A DNA stretch of 64,000 nt from an uncultured Myxococcales bacterium. Its GTDB lineage: Bacteria; Myxococcota_A; UBA9042. Position 1 is the stretch's first letter. Each line of letters begins with the position of its first letter. Below the pieces are notes generated by a model that ran no database searches, was not told the DNA's origin, and was given only the letters and a program-made list of their open reading frames with translations. Positions 1,398 through 9,254 of this stretch are shown piece by piece. The translations under genes were made by a program, and so were the position numbers. Where the stretch lies: NCBI GenBank assembly GCA_903842345.1, contig CAIMLR010000014.1, positions 62,001 through 126,000 on the forward strand. The letters are read 5' to 3'.

Positions 1398-1904
1398 ATG
1401 CCTGCCAGCCTCGCCGAGTACCGCCTGCTCCTCGCCAAAGTCGACGCCAAAGTCGCTGAAATCGCCGCTCACCAGGCCGCGCAACTTGCGTGTGCCGCCG
1501 GGTGCCACGCGTGCTGCGCGCCCGACCTCACCGTCGCCGCCGTGGAAGCAGCAGCCATCGCCGAATTCCTCGCCGCGCACGCTGACAAACTGTCTCAGGT
1601 CGAGGCCCTGGCCGTCGCCCGACCGTGGGGCGCGACCCGCTGCGCATTCCTGAATCGCGACGGCGGCTGCGCCATCTACGCGGTCCGCCCGCTTGTCTGC
1701 CGCACGCAGGGATTGCCGATCGCGTTGGAGAACGGCGAATTGACCGCGTGTTCGTTGAACTTCCGCGACGGGCTCACTGCGCTTCCCGTCGGCGACCGCA
1801 TCGACCAGAAGACGCTCAGCACTTTGCTTTTTGTGGTGAACCAGCGGTTTGGCGGCGGCGAACGGCGCGAACTGACCGTCGCCGGCGTAACGGGACGCGG
1901 CTAG
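1398..1904 (+). CDS. YkgJ-family cysteine-cluster (Zn/Fe-chelating) protein
   Basis: This 168-residue soluble protein has the CxxxCxxCC-type cluster (CAAGCHACC near residues 31-39). Downstream cysteines include CAFL, GGCAIYAVRPLVCR near residues 80-100. This is the signature of the YkgJ / UPF0153 family, thought to bind zinc or an iron-sulphur cluster; the biochemical role of the family is unknown. It stands alone between the GspF-like gene and the convergent hydrogenase-like operon. Its stop codon overlaps the stop of the operon's last gene by four bases. No clear ribosome-binding site is visible upstream of the ATG. Confidence 0.85.
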   Translation: MPASLAEYRLLLAKVDAKVAEIAAHQAAQLACAAGCHACCAPDLTVAAVEAAAIAEFLAAHADKLSQVEALAVARPWGATRCAFLNRDGGCAIYAVRPLVCRTQGLPIALENGELTACSLNFRDGLTALPVGDRIDQKTLSTLLFVVNQRFGGGERRELTVAGVTGRG

Positions 1905-2656
1905 GGCAGCGCGATTCCGAGCAAATCCATCAGGCCGTTGACGAGCGTCAGCGGGTGCGGCGGGCAGCCGGGCACGTAGAGAATCGGCACGTTCGCGTCG
2001 AGGAATTGCCGCTCAATCTGCGGCGCCTCGGCGAACAGACCGCCAGAGATCGCGCAGGCACCAAAGGCAAGCACAAAGCGCGGGCGCGGCAGCGCGTCAA
2101 AGCAGAGCTGCAGCGATTCCGCCATGTTGCGGGTGACGGGACCGCTGATGACGAGGCCATCAGCGTGGCGCGGCGAGGCGACGAACTCGATGCCATACCG
2201 GCCAAGGTCAAAATTGACGTTGCCAACCGCGTTCAGCTCGGACTCGCAGCCGTTGCAGCCGCCCGCGGAGACGGAACGCAGCCGCAGCGAGCGGCCAAAT
2301 TGCTTCTGCAGCGCGGTCGAGACGGCGATCGGCGGCGGCGCAGGCCGGTGGGCGGAGATGAGCAGGTCTTCGCGCAGCACAGCCGCAGTGTGACAGGCGT
2401 TGGCGAACGTGAGCTTCTTTTCCGGGCAAACGGGCGCGCAATCACCGCACTGGATGCAGCGTCCAAGGTCGATCTGCACGGGGTCGAGCGCCACAAACGC
2501 GTGGGTTGGGCACGCATCCGCGCACGCACGGCACGCCGGCGCACACGCGACGTCGGCGATGACCGGCATGCCGCGGAAGTTGGCGGGCGCTGCCGTGCGC
2601 AAGTCGCCGATGTACTGGCGACCTTGCGAAATTCTGACGCGTAGCGAACGCAGCAT
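1901..2656 (-). CDS. Hydrogenase-4-type small subunit (HyfI/NuoB-like) with N-terminal 2x[4Fe-4S] ferredoxin domain
   Basis: The protein is 251 residues. Residues 38-77 contain two clusters of four cysteines (C38, C42, C45, C49 and C67, C70, C73, C77), a bacterial-ferredoxin fold carrying two [4Fe-4S] centres (HyfH/NuoI-like). The remainder is a NuoB/HycG domain with CNGCE (134-138), FGACAISGG and PGCPPHP, the ligands of the N2-type proximal cluster. HyfH and HyfI functions are therefore fused in one polypeptide. The start ATG at 2656 has AGGAG eight bases upstream. It is the last gene of the operon and follows a 148-base gap. It should pass electrons along the peripheral arm of the membrane complex. 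The longer in-frame ORF upstream is out-of-gene translation of the large-subunit region and is not used. Confidence 0.88.
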   Translation of the reverse strand: MLRSLRVRISQGRQYIGDLRTAAPANFRGMPVIADVACAPACRACADACPTHAFVALDPVQIDLGRCIQCGDCAPVCPEKKLTFANACHTAAVLREDLLISAHRPAPPPIAVSTALQKQFGRSLRLRSVSAGGCNGCESELNAVGNVNFDLGRYGIEFVASPRHADGLVISGPVTRNMAESLQLCFDALPRPRFVLAFGACAISGGLFAEAPQIERQFLDANVPILYVPGCPPHPLTLVNGLMDLLGIALP

Positions 2657-2804
2657 CGGTTTGGCTCCTATGCCCGCTGGCAGAAGTTCGAGAACGAGCG
2701 GCCGCGATCGGCGGCGTGCCAACCGGAGTCCACGCGCGCGGACGTGGTCCGACTTGGAGCAGACCTGACCGCCCCCCTTGGGTCGTGGAGTGAGGTCAGC
2801 CTGT
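2657..2804 (-). other. Intra-operon gap in the hydrogenase-like operon
   Basis: This 148-base gap is the only sizeable one in an otherwise overlapping operon. It has no convincing ORF. It contains a 6-bp inverted repeat (CTGACC/GGTCAG, about 2765-2800) spaced by roughly 23 bases, next to a C6 run. The repeat could form a weak RNA hairpin or an mRNA processing site, but it is not a convincing terminator. Confidence 0.3.
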
Positions 2805-4259
2805 TCACAGGTCGCTCCCGCAGTAGGAGAGGTCAAAGCTCTTGTTGCAGATCGGAAAGTCGCTGATGTCGTTGCCGCGCAGCGCCACCGCCAGGCCAAA
2901 CCAATTGCGCAGTGACGGATCCTGCGCCTTGAAGTGCCGCAAGTTGCCGTTGGCGTCGGTCTGCAGCGCGTGGATCGTCTCCCCGCGCCAGCCTTCGCAG
3001 ACGCCGATCGCCAGCGTGTCCGGCGGCAGCGGGCCAATCGCCTGCAACGGCGGCGCATCGAGACCGGGCACCGCCAGCGCCTGTTGCAGCCACACGACGG
3101 ATCGGCCGATTTCATCGATCCGCAGCCCCGCGCGCGCCCAGACGTCGCCCGTGAGCTGCTTGGCGTGCGGCATCGGCAGCCGCGTGTACGCGCGTCCCGG
3201 CAGCGCCACGCGCTGGTCGAGGTCCAGACTGCTGGCGCGCGCCACCATGCCCACGAGCCCCAGCTCGCGCGCCGTCTCGGCCGTCACCGTGCCGACCTCG
3301 TGCAGTCGTCCTGCGACCGAGAGCGACGTCTCAAACAGCGCCGAGACCGTCCGCATGTCGCGCTGGAACTGCGCCAGCACGTCCGGAATGCGCCGCGCTG
3401 TCTCGGCGTCAATGCCAAAACGCACGCCGCCCGGCCGCAGCCAACCGCGACCAAACCGGCTGCCGCAGAGCTGCATCGACAAGTTGATGATCGTCGTGCG
3501 CAGCCGTCCCCAGGTCGTCCCGCCTTGTAGGAAGCCAATGTCCGTCGCGATGCCGCTCAGACCGGTCAGGTGCATCGCCACGCGCTCCAGTTCCAGCGCG
3601 ATCGCCCGGACGATCTCGACCTCGTCCGGCACCGTCACGCCCGCCATCGCCTCCAGCGCGCGGCAAAACGCCCACGTGTGGCCGATGCTCGTGTCGCCCG
3701 CAATCGTCTCCACCAGCGCAGGGGCGTGCGCAAGCGGCCGTTGCAGCACCAGCGCCTCGATGCCGCGATGCTGAAAACCCAGCTGGATCTCCAGATGGTG
3801 GACCTGTTCGCCGAGGCACATGAAGCGGAAATGCCCGGGCTCAATCACGCCGGCGTGGATCGGCCCGACCGCAACCTCGTGGACTTCCTTGCCGGCCATC
3901 TGAAAAAATGGATACGCGCCCATCGGCGCCACGGGCGACCGCACCGGCTTCAGCCACGGGTGCCCCGGCATCGGCAGGCCCGTCTGCTCGTGAATTTCCC
4001 GCTCAAAAATGTGCAGCTGGGGAAACTGCACCGTCAGCGCCGGCAGCCCCGCGTCGCCCGTGGCGTGACCGCGCAGCACGGCAAGGCCCTGGTCATCCTG
4101 CAACAGCGCCGTCAACTCGATGACGCCATCGGCCAGCGGCGCGCCAAAGTACGTCAGCGCCCGCGCGCCCGCGTCCAGCCGCTCGCGCAGGGCGTGGACG
4201 AACGCGCCATGGGACAGCGGCGTCAACGACGACGCGACGAGATACGGCGGCGGAGGCAT
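2805..4259 (-). CDS. Nickel-free hydrogenase-4-like large subunit (HyfG/HycE/NuoD family)
   Basis: The 484-residue protein has the HycE/HyfG layout: an N-terminal NuoC-like part (about 1-110) followed by a NuoD-like large-subunit domain. In true group 4 [NiFe] hydrogenases two CxxC motifs bind nickel. Here the first (normally CGICxxxH) reads IAGDTSIGH at 186-194. The C-terminal one (normally DPCxxC) reads DLSYCGSDL at 476-484. All four nickel ligands are therefore replaced, so [NiFe] hydrogenase activity is not expected. Known relatives are the Ehr (energy-converting-hydrogenase-related) complexes. The ATG overlaps the stop of the upstream antiporter-like gene (TGATG). It probably forms the quinone- or unknown-substrate-reacting interface with the HyfI-like subunit. 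Confidence 0.88.
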   Translation of the reverse strand: MPPPPYLVASSLTPLSHGAFVHALRERLDAGARALTYFGAPLADGVIELTALLQDDQGLAVLRGHATGDAGLPALTVQFPQLHIFEREIHEQTGLPMPGHPWLKPVRSPVAPMGAYPFFQMAGKEVHEVAVGPIHAGVIEPGHFRFMCLGEQVHHLEIQLGFQHRGIEALVLQRPLAHAPALVETIAGDTSIGHTWAFCRALEAMAGVTVPDEVEIVRAIALELERVAMHLTGLSGIATDIGFLQGGTTWGRLRTTIINLSMQLCGSRFGRGWLRPGGVRFGIDAETARRIPDVLAQFQRDMRTVSALFETSLSVAGRLHEVGTVTAETARELGLVGMVARASSLDLDQRVALPGRAYTRLPMPHAKQLTGDVWARAGLRIDEIGRSVVWLQQALAVPGLDAPPLQAIGPLPPDTLAIGVCEGWRGETIHALQTDANGNLRHFKAQDPSLRNWFGLAVALRGNDISDFPICNKSFDLSYCGSDL

Positions 4260-5707
4260 CAGCGCGTCCCCAGGCTGCCGGCAACTTGTTGCAGCAGCGT
4301 TGACAGCGGCGCCGGGGTGTAGACGCCCAGCGACAGCAGGATGGCGAGGTAGAAGAGCTTGGGACCCAGCGCGACGAGCGATTCCTTCTTGCGGACAGCG
4401 CCCGGCCGCGGCTCGCCCCAGACCATCGGAAAGAGCGAGCGCCCCGTGGCGACGAAGACAACTGAGAGCAACACGCCCAGCGCGCCAAACGTGACGAAAT
4501 GCCCGGTTGTGATGAGTCCGGTCATGATGATGACCTCCCCAAAGAAGCTGCCGAACGGCGCGAAGCCGAGGAGCGCGAACGTGCCGACGAGGAAGAAGAG
4601 CGCGCTGTAGCGCATTTCCCGGATCATGCCGTGAAGCTCGTCGATCTTCTTGGTGCGGTAGTGCGCCTTGATGGTGCCGGCCGTGAGGAACAGGATGGCT
4701 TTGACCAGCGCGTTGCTGACGACGTAGAGGATGACGCCGTACGCTGCCGGGCGGCCGAGTGCGAGGCCAAGCGCGATGACGCCCGCGTGGTTGATGGCCG
4801 CGTAGGCGATGAGCAGCTTGTAGTTGTTGGTGGAGACGATCTTGACGGTCGCCACCAACATGGACGCCAGCCCGAGCGCCGTCAGTTGATAGCCAGCCAG
4901 ATCCGCGTCATTGCCGCCGTAGACCTGCAGCGTGCGGAACAAACCGACGAACACCGCGTTGAACTGGACGGCGGCGAGCAGCGCGGTGACGGACGGCGAA
5001 GCGGCGTCGTACGTCTCCGGCAGCCACGCGTACAGCGGCGCCATGCCGAGCTTGGACGCGTAACCAAAGATCATCAGCGCGAGGCCCAGCCGCCGCCAGA
5101 CCGGATCAGCGATCGCCACTTCCAGCCGCAGGTTGTCGTGAAAAAGGCTGACCCGTTCGGCGCCGACCGTCAGCTCAATGCCATGCGTCAGGCAGACGAC
5201 GCCCAGGAGCACAAGGCCAAGGCTTACCGCCGAGAACAGAAAGTAGTGCCACGCGGCCGTCGTCGCGGAATCGCGGCGCTGGTGGTGGATCATTGGCACG
5301 GCGGCGAGCGCGGTGAACTCCAGAAAAATCCACGCGATGACGATGTGGTTGGCGAGAATCGCGCCGTTGGCCGCCGCCATGAAGACCAACGCCAGCCGCA
5401 CCAGCCGGTGGATCTCGCCCGTGAGCTCCGGCGCCGCGCGCAGGCGGTTGTGCAGGTGCAGCGAGATACCGACGAAGAGCGCGTTGATGAGCAGGAGAAA
5501 CAGCTGCGACGTCGCGTCCACGACCATGAAGTGGCCGAGCTCAAAGGTCGGCGCGCCGCGCGGAACCGAGAGCGGGAGGACGGCCAGCATGTCCAGCGCG
5601 GCGATCGCCAACAGCAGCCGGCGCGCAAACGGAAACAGCCCCGGAACCAGCAGGAGCAACGCGCCGATGAGGGGCAGGACGACGGTAGTGAGCGGCAGGA
5701 GGTTCAT
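4259..5707 (-). CDS. Hydrogenase-4 component F-like / NuoN-type antiporter membrane subunit
   Basis: This 482-residue, highly hydrophobic protein belongs to the proton-conducting Mrp-antiporter/NuoL-M-N family. It has about fourteen predicted transmembrane helices, with conserved-looking segments such as KLGMAPLYAWLPETYDAASPSVTALLAA and INHAGVIALGLA read in pieces along the sequence. The former is the typical lysine-bearing helix around broken TM7-8. The start at 5707 is chosen because its ATG overlaps the TGA of the gene upstream (ATGA). The longer ORF adds 41 residues lacking hydrophobic character. It should contribute one ion-translocation channel of the complex. Confidence 0.87.
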   Translation of the reverse strand: MNLLPLTTVVLPLIGALLLLVPGLFPFARRLLLAIAALDMLAVLPLSVPRGAPTFELGHFMVVDATSQLFLLLINALFVGISLHLHNRLRAAPELTGEIHRLVRLALVFMAAANGAILANHIVIAWIFLEFTALAAVPMIHHQRRDSATTAAWHYFLFSAVSLGLVLLGVVCLTHGIELTVGAERVSLFHDNLRLEVAIADPVWRRLGLALMIFGYASKLGMAPLYAWLPETYDAASPSVTALLAAVQFNAVFVGLFRTLQVYGGNDADLAGYQLTALGLASMLVATVKIVSTNNYKLLIAYAAINHAGVIALGLALGRPAAYGVILYVVSNALVKAILFLTAGTIKAHYRTKKIDELHGMIREMRYSALFFLVGTFALLGFAPFGSFFGEVIIMTGLITTGHFVTFGALGVLLSVVFVATGRSLFPMVWGEPRPGAVRKKESLVALGPKLFYLAILLSLGVYTPAPLSTLLQQVAGSLGTR

Positions 5708-6327
5708 AGGATGGCCGAATCCGCGGGATGCTCGGGCGCATCGTCCACCATGCCCAGACGCCGCACCAGCAGCGCGAGTGTCAGCACGGACAGGAGGTAC
5801 ACGAGCGTCAGACCCAGCTGCGCCATCCATTCGACATGGTGGTGCGCGTGGAGCTCAAAAAGCGCGATGCTGTTCTCCAGCGTGAGCACCGCGATCGCTT
5901 GGCCCAGCGGCGCGCGCTGGGTCGAAAGGATCAGCAGCGCCAGCAGCACGCCGGAACACGCCACGCCGAGGTGCGTGATCGAACGCGAGTATTCGCCCGC
6001 CAGCGTCGCCGAAAATCCAAAACTGGTCATCACGAGCACCGCCGCGAGCGTCCAGACGAACAGGTTGGCCGGAATGAGGTCAAACGCCGACTGGACGCCG
6101 CGCTCGGTCGCCATCCGCTTGAGGTACCACGGCGCGAACAGCGCCCGGAACAGCAGCAGATCGGCCAGCGCAATCAGCGGCGAGGGCGCGAAGTGGTCCG
6201 CGTGCAGCCAAATCATCCCCGCCATCGCCAGCGCCTGGATGCGCAGCCCGGTCAGCGCCGCGCGCCACGAGCGGATGAACAGCGGCAGGCACAGCGCGAG
6301 GAACCAGGCAAAGAGGAGGTACGTCAT
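5704..6327 (-). CDS. Hydrogenase-4 component E-like (NuoK-related) membrane protein
   Basis: The 207-residue protein has about six hydrophobic helices and ends in a short polar tail. Size, position between HyfC- and HyfF-like genes, and the C-terminal NuoK-like part match HyfE of formate hydrogenlyase-2. It is an inner-membrane subunit expected to sit between the antiporter-like subunits and the NuoH-like anchor. The stop overlaps the next ATG by four bases, and six bases separate it from the upstream gene. Confidence 0.82.
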   Translation of the reverse strand: MTYLLFAWFLALCLPLFIRSWRAALTGLRIQALAMAGMIWLHADHFAPSPLIALADLLLFRALFAPWYLKRMATERGVQSAFDLIPANLFVWTLAAVLVMTSFGFSATLAGEYSRSITHLGVACSGVLLALLILSTQRAPLGQAIAVLTLENSIALFELHAHHHVEWMAQLGLTLVYLLSVLTLALLVRRLGMVDDAPEHPADSAIL

Positions 6328-6333
6328 GGCCGC

Positions 6334-7254
6334 CTACCCCAGTTCCGGTTGCGTGGTGGCCAACAGGAGCGCGACAACGCCCAGCGCAGCGATCACAAAA
6401 GCGAACTGCGGAATCAGGCGCATCCGCAGCCGCGCAACAAGCGACTCGACGAAGCCAATCGCCACGGCCGTCGCCAGCATCAACGCCAGCGAAACGAGCG
6501 CGCTCAGGAGCGGCTGGTTGTGGGCGGGGAACGGATTGACGAGCGCTGCGAGCATCCCGGCGTAGAGCGTCAGCTTCAGGCCCGCGCCGTACTGCATCAT
6601 CGCGAGATCGACGCCGCTATGATCGAGGATCATGACCTCGTGAATCATCGTCAGTTCGAGATGGGTCGTCGGATCGTCCACGGGCAGCCGCGCGCTCTCG
6701 ATGAGCAGCAGCAGGAACAGCGCCGTCGCGCACAGCGGCGACACGAGAAACGCCTGCCAGCCGTGCGGCAGCATGAGTTCGGCAAAATTGCCATGACCGC
6801 TGCCGAGCGCGAGCGTGCCCAGCACGAGGAAGAGCGCGGGCTCGGCGAACACCGCAAACGTCGCCTCGCGCGCGGCGCCCATGCCCTCAAACGGACTGCC
6901 AGTATCGAGCGCGGCCAGCATCAGGAACATGCGCCCCAGCCCGACGACGTAGGCGAATGCGACAAAATCGTTGGCGAACGGGAGGATGCCCGCCCCAGGC
7001 ACGAGCGGCGCCAGGAGGGACGCCACCAGGGTAGTCGCCACAACAACGAGCGGCGCGAGCCGGAAGACGGCGGTCGTCACTTCACTGTAGACCGGCTGCT
7101 TGCCCAGCAGGCGGCGCGTGTCCCACAACGGCTGCAGCAACGGGGCGCCACGGCGACCGCCCCACCACGCCTTGACGCGGTTGATGACGCCGGGCAGCAG
7201 GAACGGCAGCAGCACGAGCCCGAGCAGGTGCAGGACGAGGGAAGCGAGCATCAC
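6334..7254 (-). CDS. Hydrogenase-4 component C-like (NuoH/HycD) membrane anchor subunit
   Basis: This 306-residue membrane protein belongs to the respiratory-chain subunit 1 (NuoH/HycD/HyfC) family. It shows the family segment around LPVDDPTTHLELTMIHEVM (approx. residues 195-215), including the conserved acidic loop that contacts the peripheral arm, and about eight helices. NuoH-type subunits link electron transfer in the peripheral arm to ion pumping. Its ATG overlaps the stop of the HyfB-like gene by four bases. Full family length, no damage seen. Confidence 0.88.
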   Translation of the reverse strand: MMLASLVLHLLGLVLLPFLLPGVINRVKAWWGGRRGAPLLQPLWDTRRLLGKQPVYSEVTTAVFRLAPLVVVATTLVASLLAPLVPGAGILPFANDFVAFAYVVGLGRMFLMLAALDTGSPFEGMGAAREATFAVFAEPALFLVLGTLALGSGHGNFAELMLPHGWQAFLVSPLCATALFLLLLIESARLPVDDPTTHLELTMIHEVMILDHSGVDLAMMQYGAGLKLTLYAGMLAALVNPFPAHNQPLLSALVSLALMLATAVAIGFVESLVARLRMRLIPQFAFVIAALGVVALLLATTQPELG

Positions 7255-9254
7255 AGCCGGCCTCCCGTGCTCGCCAGCACCAACGCGATCGTCGCGACGA
7301 GAACCAGCAGGCCGACGGCAAACGCGATCCGCGGGCTCTGCGGCGCTTTCTCGGCCAGGAGCGCGAGCGTCGCTTCGCCCGTGTCCAGCACCTCAAACAT
7401 GCGATCCTCGACGGCGTCCACCGCATGCGTCCGCAGGTACGCTTCCGGCGGAAAGGGCCCGGTTGGCAGGCGCTGCGTGATCTTGATGGGCAGCAACGTC
7501 TTGTAGTAGCTGGCCAAATGGCCGGAAAACGACGCGCCCGTGTACTGCGCGCGCGGCACCGGCTGCGTGTAGCCGCAGCCCCAGGTCCGATGCGAGAGCG
7601 CCGGCGTCGGCGACGCCCACTTGCGGACGACCGCGAGCGCGCCGACGAGCAGCAACACCGCGACGCTCACGCCCACGACTGGCAGCAGCAGCCCCAGCGG
7701 GACCGCGAGCACCTGGGCGACGTCCAGCCCGCGGTGGGTGAGCGCGATGAACTGCTCGGCGGGAACCGCGACGAGCGCGAGTCCGACCTGCGGAACCAAG
7801 CCAAACACGAACAGCAACACCGAGAGGATGTACAGCGCGCTGCGCATGGCCGGACCGGGATCGTGGGCGCCGTGAATCGTCGGGTCGCGCGGCGCGCCGA
7901 GGAAAGTCAGACCGAAGGCGCGCGTCATGGAGAACGCCGAGACGGCGCCGACGAACGCGAGCACCGTCGCAGCGAGGACGAGGAGCCCGCGGTTCTGGCC
8001 GCCGACGACGGAATGGTCAAAGAGCGCGCTGTAGATGAGGAATTCGCTGACGAAGCCGTTGAGCGGCGGCAGAGCGGCGATGGCGACGCCGCCCAACAGG
8101 AAGGCGACGGCGGTCTGGGGCATCCGACGGGCGAGACCGCCCAGGCGCTCGATGTCGACCGAGTGCGTGGCGCTGTAGACCGCGCCAGCGGCGTAGAAGA
8201 GCAGGCATTTGAAGATGGCATGGTGCAGGATGTGCAGCAGGCCACCGGCAAAACCGAGGACGACGAGGACCGGGTTGTGCCACGTCAGCCCGAGATAGCC
8301 GAGGCCAAAACCGAGGCACGCGATGCCGACGTTCTCCGTCGAACTGTAGCCCAGCAGGCGCTTGAGATCGCGCTGGACGACCGTGTAGACGACGCCGGTC
8401 ACCGCCGAGAGCAGCGCAAACGCGATGAGAAACCAGCCCATCCACTCGTCAGGCGCGCCCATCAGCAGTGTGAACCGCAGCAGGCCGTACAGCCCAGCCT
8501 TGTGGATGACGCCGGACATGAGCGCGGAGACGTGCGCGGGCGCGGCGGCATGCGCGCGGGGCAGCCAGGTGTGCGCCGGAAAAAACGCCGACTTCAGGCC
8601 GAACGAGGCGACAAGCAGCAGGAACGTCACGTTGCGGGTCATGCCCGGATTGTGGAGCGCGACCGCGAATTGGCTGAAATCAAAGGAGTGCGTCTGGCTG
8701 AAGAGCACGAGAAACGCGGTGATAAGGAAGAGGACGCCGAGGTGGGTCGAGACGAGGTAGTTGAAACCGGCGAAGCGCACCTTCTGGTTGCGATAGTCCC
8801 AAATCACCAACAGCCAAGCCGCCAGCGCGGCGACCTCCCAGCCGAGGAGAAAACCCATCGCGTTCTCAACGGAGTAGATGATGAGGTAGGAAAGCGAAAC
8901 GAAGTTCAGGAGCGCGTAGTGCACGCCAATGTTGCGGTCGCTCTTGAAATACGGCTGAAGATAGCCGTGGGCGTAGACCGCGCCGAGCAGCGTCAAGGGC
9001 ATGGAAAAAGCCAGAAAAAGCGCGCCGAGCCCGTCGATGCGCAGCAGGACCAGGTCGACCGGATAGGACCAGGTGAGCTCCGCGACGATGGCCGGGTGGT
9101 GGCCCAGCACCGGACCGACGGCGGCAAGCACGAGCAACGTGGCCACGACTTGGGACGCGATGCCAATCGCCGCGCGCCTCGTGTTGCCCGGCACCGCGAT
9201 GCACAGCAGCGCACCGAGCAACAGACTGAGGGTCGCAACGTGCATCAGCGGCAT
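7251..9254 (-). CDS. Hydrogenase-4 component B-like (HycC/HyfB, NuoL/M family) proton-translocating subunit
   Basis: The 667-residue protein is the first gene of the operon. It has the antiporter/NuoL-M core (about residues 120-440, with helix segments such as FPAHTWLPRAHAAAPAHVSALMSG read in parts and a lysine/histidine-rich channel). It is followed by the HycC/HyfB-type C-terminal extension containing TWGCGY and a last transmembrane helix. ATG at 9254 is chosen; the upstream 30 codons are Arg/Pro-rich and not hydrophobic. A promoter-like TTGACG-N17-TACGTT lies 60-90 bases upstream. The six genes in the order B-C-E-F-G-I have no formate dehydrogenase, hydrogenase maturation or NADH module nearby, so the electron donor is unknown. 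Confidence 0.88.
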   Translation of the reverse strand: MPLMHVATLSLLLGALLCIAVPGNTRRAAIGIASQVVATLLVLAAVGPVLGHHPAIVAELTWSYPVDLVLLRIDGLGALFLAFSMPLTLLGAVYAHGYLQPYFKSDRNIGVHYALLNFVSLSYLIIYSVENAMGFLLGWEVAALAAWLLVIWDYRNQKVRFAGFNYLVSTHLGVLFLITAFLVLFSQTHSFDFSQFAVALHNPGMTRNVTFLLLVASFGLKSAFFPAHTWLPRAHAAAPAHVSALMSGVIHKAGLYGLLRFTLLMGAPDEWMGWFLIAFALLSAVTGVVYTVVQRDLKRLLGYSSTENVGIACLGFGLGYLGLTWHNPVLVVLGFAGGLLHILHHAIFKCLLFYAAGAVYSATHSVDIERLGGLARRMPQTAVAFLLGGVAIAALPPLNGFVSEFLIYSALFDHSVVGGQNRGLLVLAATVLAFVGAVSAFSMTRAFGLTFLGAPRDPTIHGAHDPGPAMRSALYILSVLLFVFGLVPQVGLALVAVPAEQFIALTHRGLDVAQVLAVPLGLLLPVVGVSVAVLLLVGALAVVRKWASPTPALSHRTWGCGYTQPVPRAQYTGASFSGHLASYYKTLLPIKITQRLPTGPFPPEAYLRTHAVDAVEDRMFEVLDTGEATLALLAEKAPQSPRIAFAVGLLVLVATIALVLASTGGRL

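Follow-up and report, generated by a model that had tools for sequence, protein, structure and literature searches.

The 64,000-nt stretch analysed here (hereafter the window; positions 62,001 to 126,000 of contig CAIMLR010000014.1, from an uncultured Myxococcales bacterium) carries six genes for an Ehr complex, an energy-converting (Ech) hydrogenase-related complex. This is a known family, found in many bacterial phyla including, according to the literature, nitrifiers and mycobacteria. Our best explanation, which we hold with about even confidence, is that Ehr is a reductase that pumps ions, takes its electrons from ferredoxin and has a remodelled pocket. Earlier papers already describe the class as widespread and its function as unknown (PMC6349859, PMC10284858, PMC12342949); what the present analysis adds is a pocket that appears, from its residues, to be unlike those of hydrogenase, complex I and the sulphur reductase MBS. 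The window locus is a clean test case, with six genes, no maturation genes, separate complex I genes in the genome and all cluster ligands intact. Its six open reading frames are all uninterrupted, lie on the minus strand (1901-9254) and, E excepted, match Hyf or complex I families, bearing out the complex I-like membrane machine of the original prediction:

7251..9254, minus strand: B, HyfB/NuoL-like antiporter subunit, 667 aa (Proton_antipo_M, 2e-51)
6334..7251, minus strand: C, HyfC/NuoH-like membrane anchor (NADHdh, 2e-27)
5704..6327, minus strand: E, HyfE-like membrane subunit, named from its position between C and F and its alignment with E. coli HyfE
4259..5707, minus strand: F, HyfF/NuoN-like antiporter subunit (Proton_antipo_M, 2e-36)
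2805..4259, minus strand: G, large subunit (EhrL; NuoC-D-like fusion) without nickel ligands (family match, alignment and fold model)
2657..2804, minus strand: G-I spacer, a dispersed genomic repeat in diverged form, outside the machine (genomic repeat matches)
1901..2656, minus strand: I, small subunit (EhrS), ferredoxin domain plus NuoB/HyfI-like domain, 251 aa (Oxidored_q6 and Fer4)

The locus is in effect a complex I lacking the NADH module, with equivalents of NuoL, NuoH, a HyfE subunit, NuoN, NuoC-D and NuoI-B. By homology, the six genes account for NuoB, C, D, H, I, L and N; likenesses to NuoA at the end of B and to NuoK in E are proposed only by analogy with the published Hyc and Hyf structures. 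B reaches 2e-135 against the hydrogenase 4 subunit B model, yet stays under the cut-off of that model. E drew no match to any family model in the profile searches; its Q31, E151 and N152 align with E. coli HyfE. One mark of Ehr is that antiporter-like, NuoH-like and HyfE-like genes share an operon with those of the large and small subunits, and all of these are present. Known Ehr complexes, such as Geobacter GSU0739-45, the mycobacterial Rv0081-Rv0087 region and those of comammox Nitrospira and Methylacidiphilum (ehrABCDLS), likewise have a group 4-related large subunit without the nickel CxxC motifs, a small Fe-S subunit, and NuoL-like and HyfE-like membrane subunits (PMC7894505, PMC6728331, PMC10284858, PMC6688271). 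Those of nitrifiers (PMC12342949, PMC10432482, PMC10284858), mycobacteria (PMC6728331) and relatives of Cyanobacteria (PMC6349859) are considered to be non-hydrogenases of unknown function.

The loss of the nickel site was the central claim of the original prediction. Both sequences quoted for it, IAGDTSIGH and DLSYCGSDL, were found in G, and in the alignment with E. coli HycE the four ligands C241, C244, C531 and C534 correspond to A187, T190, S478 and G481, so that both CxxC motifs are indeed gone. C480 of G is one residue off the ligand position and is Ala or Ser in 18 members. Among 117 family sequences, the four columns hold Ala in 95 (Cys in 12), Thr or Ser in 110 (never Cys), Ser in 117 and Gly in 117. 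Judging by this alignment, nickel loss is not special to the window locus and is common to all 117 members. G terminates at the position of HycE R537, and there is therefore no C-terminal extension to cleave. Nor did searches of the host genome for HypD, or for the [NiFe] large-subunit family PF00374, return a match; genome-wide statements on the host rest on searches with individual families in an assembly of 5.85 Mb and 50 contigs that is 95.7% complete, and absences are read with this incompleteness in mind. HypD was identified in 106 of 379 genomes sampled from the phylum. When the two lists were compared by hand, 18 genomes with Ehr also had HypD and 27 of 45 did not, which argues that Ehr is independent of nickel maturation. 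We rejected the idea that G belongs to a true [NiFe] hydrogenase and that a frameshift or an assembly error conceals its cysteines; we found no support for this and regard its probability as negligible. The same substitutions occur in 117 independent sequences, including same-genus orthologues at 79-83% identity, which speaks against a frameshift, and neither HypD nor PF00374 was matched.

A tree of large subunits, built without Ech, Eha, Ehb or MbsL and with the columns of the nickel ligands masked, places G on the side of the group 4 hydrogenases (HycE/HyfG), outside NuoD and within a nickel-free clade; a FastTree tree agrees. The observation of a nickel-free Hyf-like complex is confirmed, and its interpretation as Ehr-like is supported by this tree. 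Compared with hydrogenase-4 and formate hydrogenlyase (E. coli Hyf and Hyc; group 4a), the window complex has the same gene order, fold, C-D fusion and proton path, but it lacks the nickel ligands, the C-terminal extension, HyfA, HyfD and hyp genes, and its HyfH and HyfI are fused. The sister of the nickel-free clade is a Myxococcota protein that retains both CxxC motifs; the ultrafast bootstrap is ~91 for this grouping and 98-100 for the deeper splits, and re-rooting may move the labels by one node.

L191:1011-2624: nickel-bearing sister (L162/L191; Myxococcota G131:C671), large subunit with CGVC and CYAC and no C-terminal extension

The sister is 35% identical to G; GIIEPGHFRF, NKSF and the fusion of ferredoxin with NuoB are common to both loci, but the sister has the two nickel motifs, and HypD is found in its genome. 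It is likely an intermediate between hydrogenase and Ehr and points to where nickel loss probably began, and its fusion suggests that the joining of ferredoxin and NuoB is older than that loss. The changes that accompany nickel loss, relative to this protein, include D189, S478 and G481; it already carries I139 and the NK of NKSF. A distant nickel-less large subunit (L194; G116:C22), with AGTT ... LSVAESDR, branches outside the pair formed by Ehr and its sister, which suggests a second, independent nickel loss.

Relatives of the large subunit were identified in 10 of the 22 genomes of the order and in 45 of 379 of the phylum (E <= 1e-40; at least one of the 45, in G116, is of the more distant nickel-less type). 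Matches also occur at more than 500 places in GTDB genomes of many phyla, and 80 loci were kept among the GTDB matches listed. Across phyla the gene order B-C-E-F-G-I is conserved, and the ferredoxin-NuoB fusion nearly so; I follows G immediately in 113 cases, and an antiporter gene immediately precedes G in 113. For the Geobacter-type Ehr we compared the orthologous operons of Geobacter argillaceus and Geomonas limicola, whose large subunits align with G at 44-46% over nearly the full length. The window locus differs from the known Ehr complexes named above in having a repeat inserted before the small-subunit gene and no HTH-EIIA gene (see below), and from Geomonas in having one HyfB copy where Geomonas has an extra one. 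As a separate observation, a Rhodoferax metagenome-assembled genome (L043:18100-21275) has two different ehr-type operons on one contig, ~6 kb apart, whose large subunits are 48% and 33% identical to that of the window.

The residues that line the former nickel site set the family apart. Complex I holds the headgroup of its quinone with two residues, His38 and Tyr87 in Thermus Nqo4 (H224 and Y273 in E. coli NuoCD). All 117 Ehr large subunits have I139 and G188 at these positions instead; both NuoD proteins of the host genome retain the original pair. Complex I resembles the window complex in its homologous large and small subunits, its NuoH and antiporters, and in the loss of all nickel ligands, but unlike complex I the window complex has no NADH module and no His38/Tyr87 pair, and its proximal motif is CxxC instead of adjacent CC. 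The proton path of formate hydrogenlyase (E193, H284, R395, E437 and R478; PMC9474812) is almost fully conserved: among 117 sequences we found E140 in 117, H230 in 116, R341 in 113 (Lys in the remaining 4), E383 in 116 and R425 in 117, and position 476, equivalent to HycE D529, is Asp or Asn. Invariant in the pocket are E140, G188-D189, N472-K473, S478-Y479 and G481. An AlphaFold model of G (mean pLDDT 91.9, with low confidence in loop 134-139 and the last four residues) has HycE (7z0s, TMq 0.87) as its top PDB match. For biochemists, this residue map is a guide to positions for mutation.

An MBS-like sulphur reductase working at the proximal cluster has to be weighed here, as MBS/Mbx of Pyrococcus is likewise nickel-less, hydrogenase-derived and devoid of His38/Tyr87 (PMC7684303). 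However, MBS lacks the proton-donor Glu (the equivalent of MbhL E21) and the proton path (PMC7684303), and its proximal cluster has three cysteines and a shortened motif. In Ehr the Glu (E140) is invariant, the path is conserved and the window protein has a full four-cysteine cluster with a CxxC motif of hydrogenase length. We therefore take Ehr to represent a separate pocket type, which by its residues is neither hydrogenase-like, complex I-like nor MBS-like, and an MBS-type reaction is very improbable.

The remaining parts of a putative electron and ion path are in place at the window locus. The small subunit has 8 of 8 ferredoxin cysteines and 4 of 4 proximal-cluster cysteines (C134, C137, C201 and C231, in a C-x2-C motif of hydrogenase-like spacing and length); all 12 ligands were found, in line with the original prediction of intact iron-sulphur ligands, and its AlphaFold model (mean pLDDT 94.4) matches HycG and MbhJ in structure. 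The predicted fusion of HyfH and HyfI functions is present as well, but it is the norm of the family and occurs in the nickel-bearing sister, and we reject any special significance of it at this locus. In the membrane arm, B and F both retain the Glu and Lys channel residues (E140, K221, K252, K349 and E404 of B; E130, K219, K297, K336 and E391 of F), including a lysine missing from HycC, and the acidic residues E138, D193, E200 and E206 of C are conserved. In the ferredoxin-fed reductase that we favour, a soluble low-potential donor, e.g., reduced ferredoxin, would pass electrons to the two clusters of the fused ferredoxin domain, from which they would reach the proximal [4Fe-4S] cluster of the small subunit. 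A substrate would then be reduced in the large subunit, in the remodelled pocket that once held nickel; protons would arrive via the conserved hydrogenase path, and the energy would be relayed via the acidic residues of HyfC to the two antiporter subunits, moving ions across the membrane. The acceptor is perhaps a quinone, bound by a ligand set unlike that of complex I. The donor, acceptor, direction and ion in this scheme are inferred, and it is from the conserved residues only that a coupling of charge translocation to a cytoplasmic redox reaction is proposed.

Three observations weigh against this reductase. The complex I quinone ligands are invariantly replaced by I139 and G188, so that a quinone would need another binding mode; no donor or acceptor gene is encoded near the operon; and some lineages, described below, have lost the proximal ligands and kept the complex. 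As to the second, we found no redox partner gene among the neighbours in the window and no recurrent one adjacent in the 98 loci with downstream sequence, which also fits a diffusible donor that docks on the ferredoxin domain. The same electron chain and antiporters could also run in reverse, with the proton-motive force driving electrons from quinol to a low-potential ferredoxin as a reductant for biosynthesis. The host genome, searched for other complex I operons, has two canonical NuoD loci with complex I genes, next to which another forward quinone reductase would be redundant. Nitrifiers require reverse electron transport. The presence of Ehr in these organisms (PMC10432482, PMC12342949) would be in line with the reverse mode. 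However, sequence does not fix the direction, and the absent complex I quinone ligands count against this mode too; we consider it unlikely.

In seven Bacteroidota genomes the proximal ligands of the small subunit are replaced by D/C/D/N (D/A/D/N in one), with the other six proteins 64-76% identical to that of Ancylomarina, and one planctomycete has N/E/E/W at these positions:

L101:11481-12224: small subunit without proximal ligands
L072:11564-12286: small subunit without proximal ligands
Genes of L047, L081, L094, L096 and L115: small subunits without proximal ligands
L213: small subunit without proximal ligands

All these genes lie in ehr operons that are otherwise intact. In the planctomycete and in six of the Bacteroidota, those covered by a complete reading, the pocket and membrane-arm residues are kept. 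In these lineages an electron route via the proximal cluster would not be possible as we know it. They offer a natural test of whether the pocket has to receive electrons at all, and are the strongest hint of something beyond plain pocket reduction; the window member keeps every ligand, so the hint does not apply there. Such a pattern might be expected of a gated ion translocator, in which the peripheral arm would serve as a sensor of a ligand or of redox state and control ion movement through the antiporter arm, like a regulated cation/proton antiporter. Many operons also open with a gene resembling EIIA(Ntr), a family that regulates potassium transport in E. coli. However, most members, including that of the window, keep all proximal cysteines and a complete proton path to the pocket, features that would serve no purpose if no redox chemistry took place, and we rate gating as slightly less probable than the reverse mode. 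A bolder form of the idea, less probable again, is that Ehr could form a functional branch of its own, the fourth, in the complex I superfamily, with a core activity other than reducing protons, quinone or sulphur via the proximal cluster. It would then translocate ions under the control of a signal or ligand, switched in many species by PTS-Ntr (EIIA) phosphorylation. This is based on the invariant pocket and a membrane arm that is kept even where the proximal cluster is lost.

The EIIA-like gene, with HTH_17 and PTS_EIIA_2 domains (Pfam run on one member, L062:3419-4102), lies directly before the first ehr gene in 44 non-redundant loci, always on the same strand and mostly with a 4-nt overlap.

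L072:1470-2956: example of the HTH-EIIA gene, directly upstream of the first ehr gene

It opens about half of the operons with a visible upstream gene, and the G-x-A-x-P-H active-site motif with its phosphorylatable His is conserved in the family. In L062 this gene is directed away from the main operon, and a separate HyfB copy follows it. Some Kofleriaceae-type loci have instead a short gene overlapping HyfB, labelled response-regulator-like from reading its sequence. Neither type occurs in the window, and a single query, from a distant Geobacter protein, found no HTH-EIIA homologue in the host genome. A published link between EIIA and Ehr was not found in the open-access literature; subscription papers were not covered.

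Another proposed partner is a soluble formate dehydrogenase (FDH), encoded elsewhere, that would feed the ferredoxin domain. An FDH-Ehr complex has been proposed for Riflemargulisbacteria and Saganbacteria (PMC6349859), and all Ehr subunits were abundant in formate-grown Geobacter (PMC7894505). No FDH, HycB/HyfA electron-transfer subunit or NuoEFG (NADH module) is encoded in the operon or its neighbours, and no FDH recurs beside the relatives; the rest of the genome was not searched for FDH. We judge an FDH-fed Ehr at this locus improbable, a little more so than the fourth branch.

The neighbours are HisG- and HisC-like genes, a type II secretion F protein, a CxxCxxCC protein, YjdM, a DoxX-like protein and a serine/threonine kinase, called with a codon-trained caller and, where no family matched, named by reading the sequence. 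From this reading, no hyp, formate or NADH gene lies next to the operon, in agreement with the original prediction, and no viral relatives were found. The description as six coupled genes in Hyf order needs one correction. The genes and their order stand, with overlaps between B/C, E/F and F/G and a C-E gap of 6 nt, but a 148-nt spacer separates G from I, so that the coupling is strictly five plus one. In same-genus relatives the equivalent spacer is ~18 nt. A structured RNA in the 148-nt spacer was ruled out (z-score +0.8, inverted repeats not found). The sequence is a dispersed repeat, with eight matches in the genome, namely itself and seven other places at 71-80% identity.

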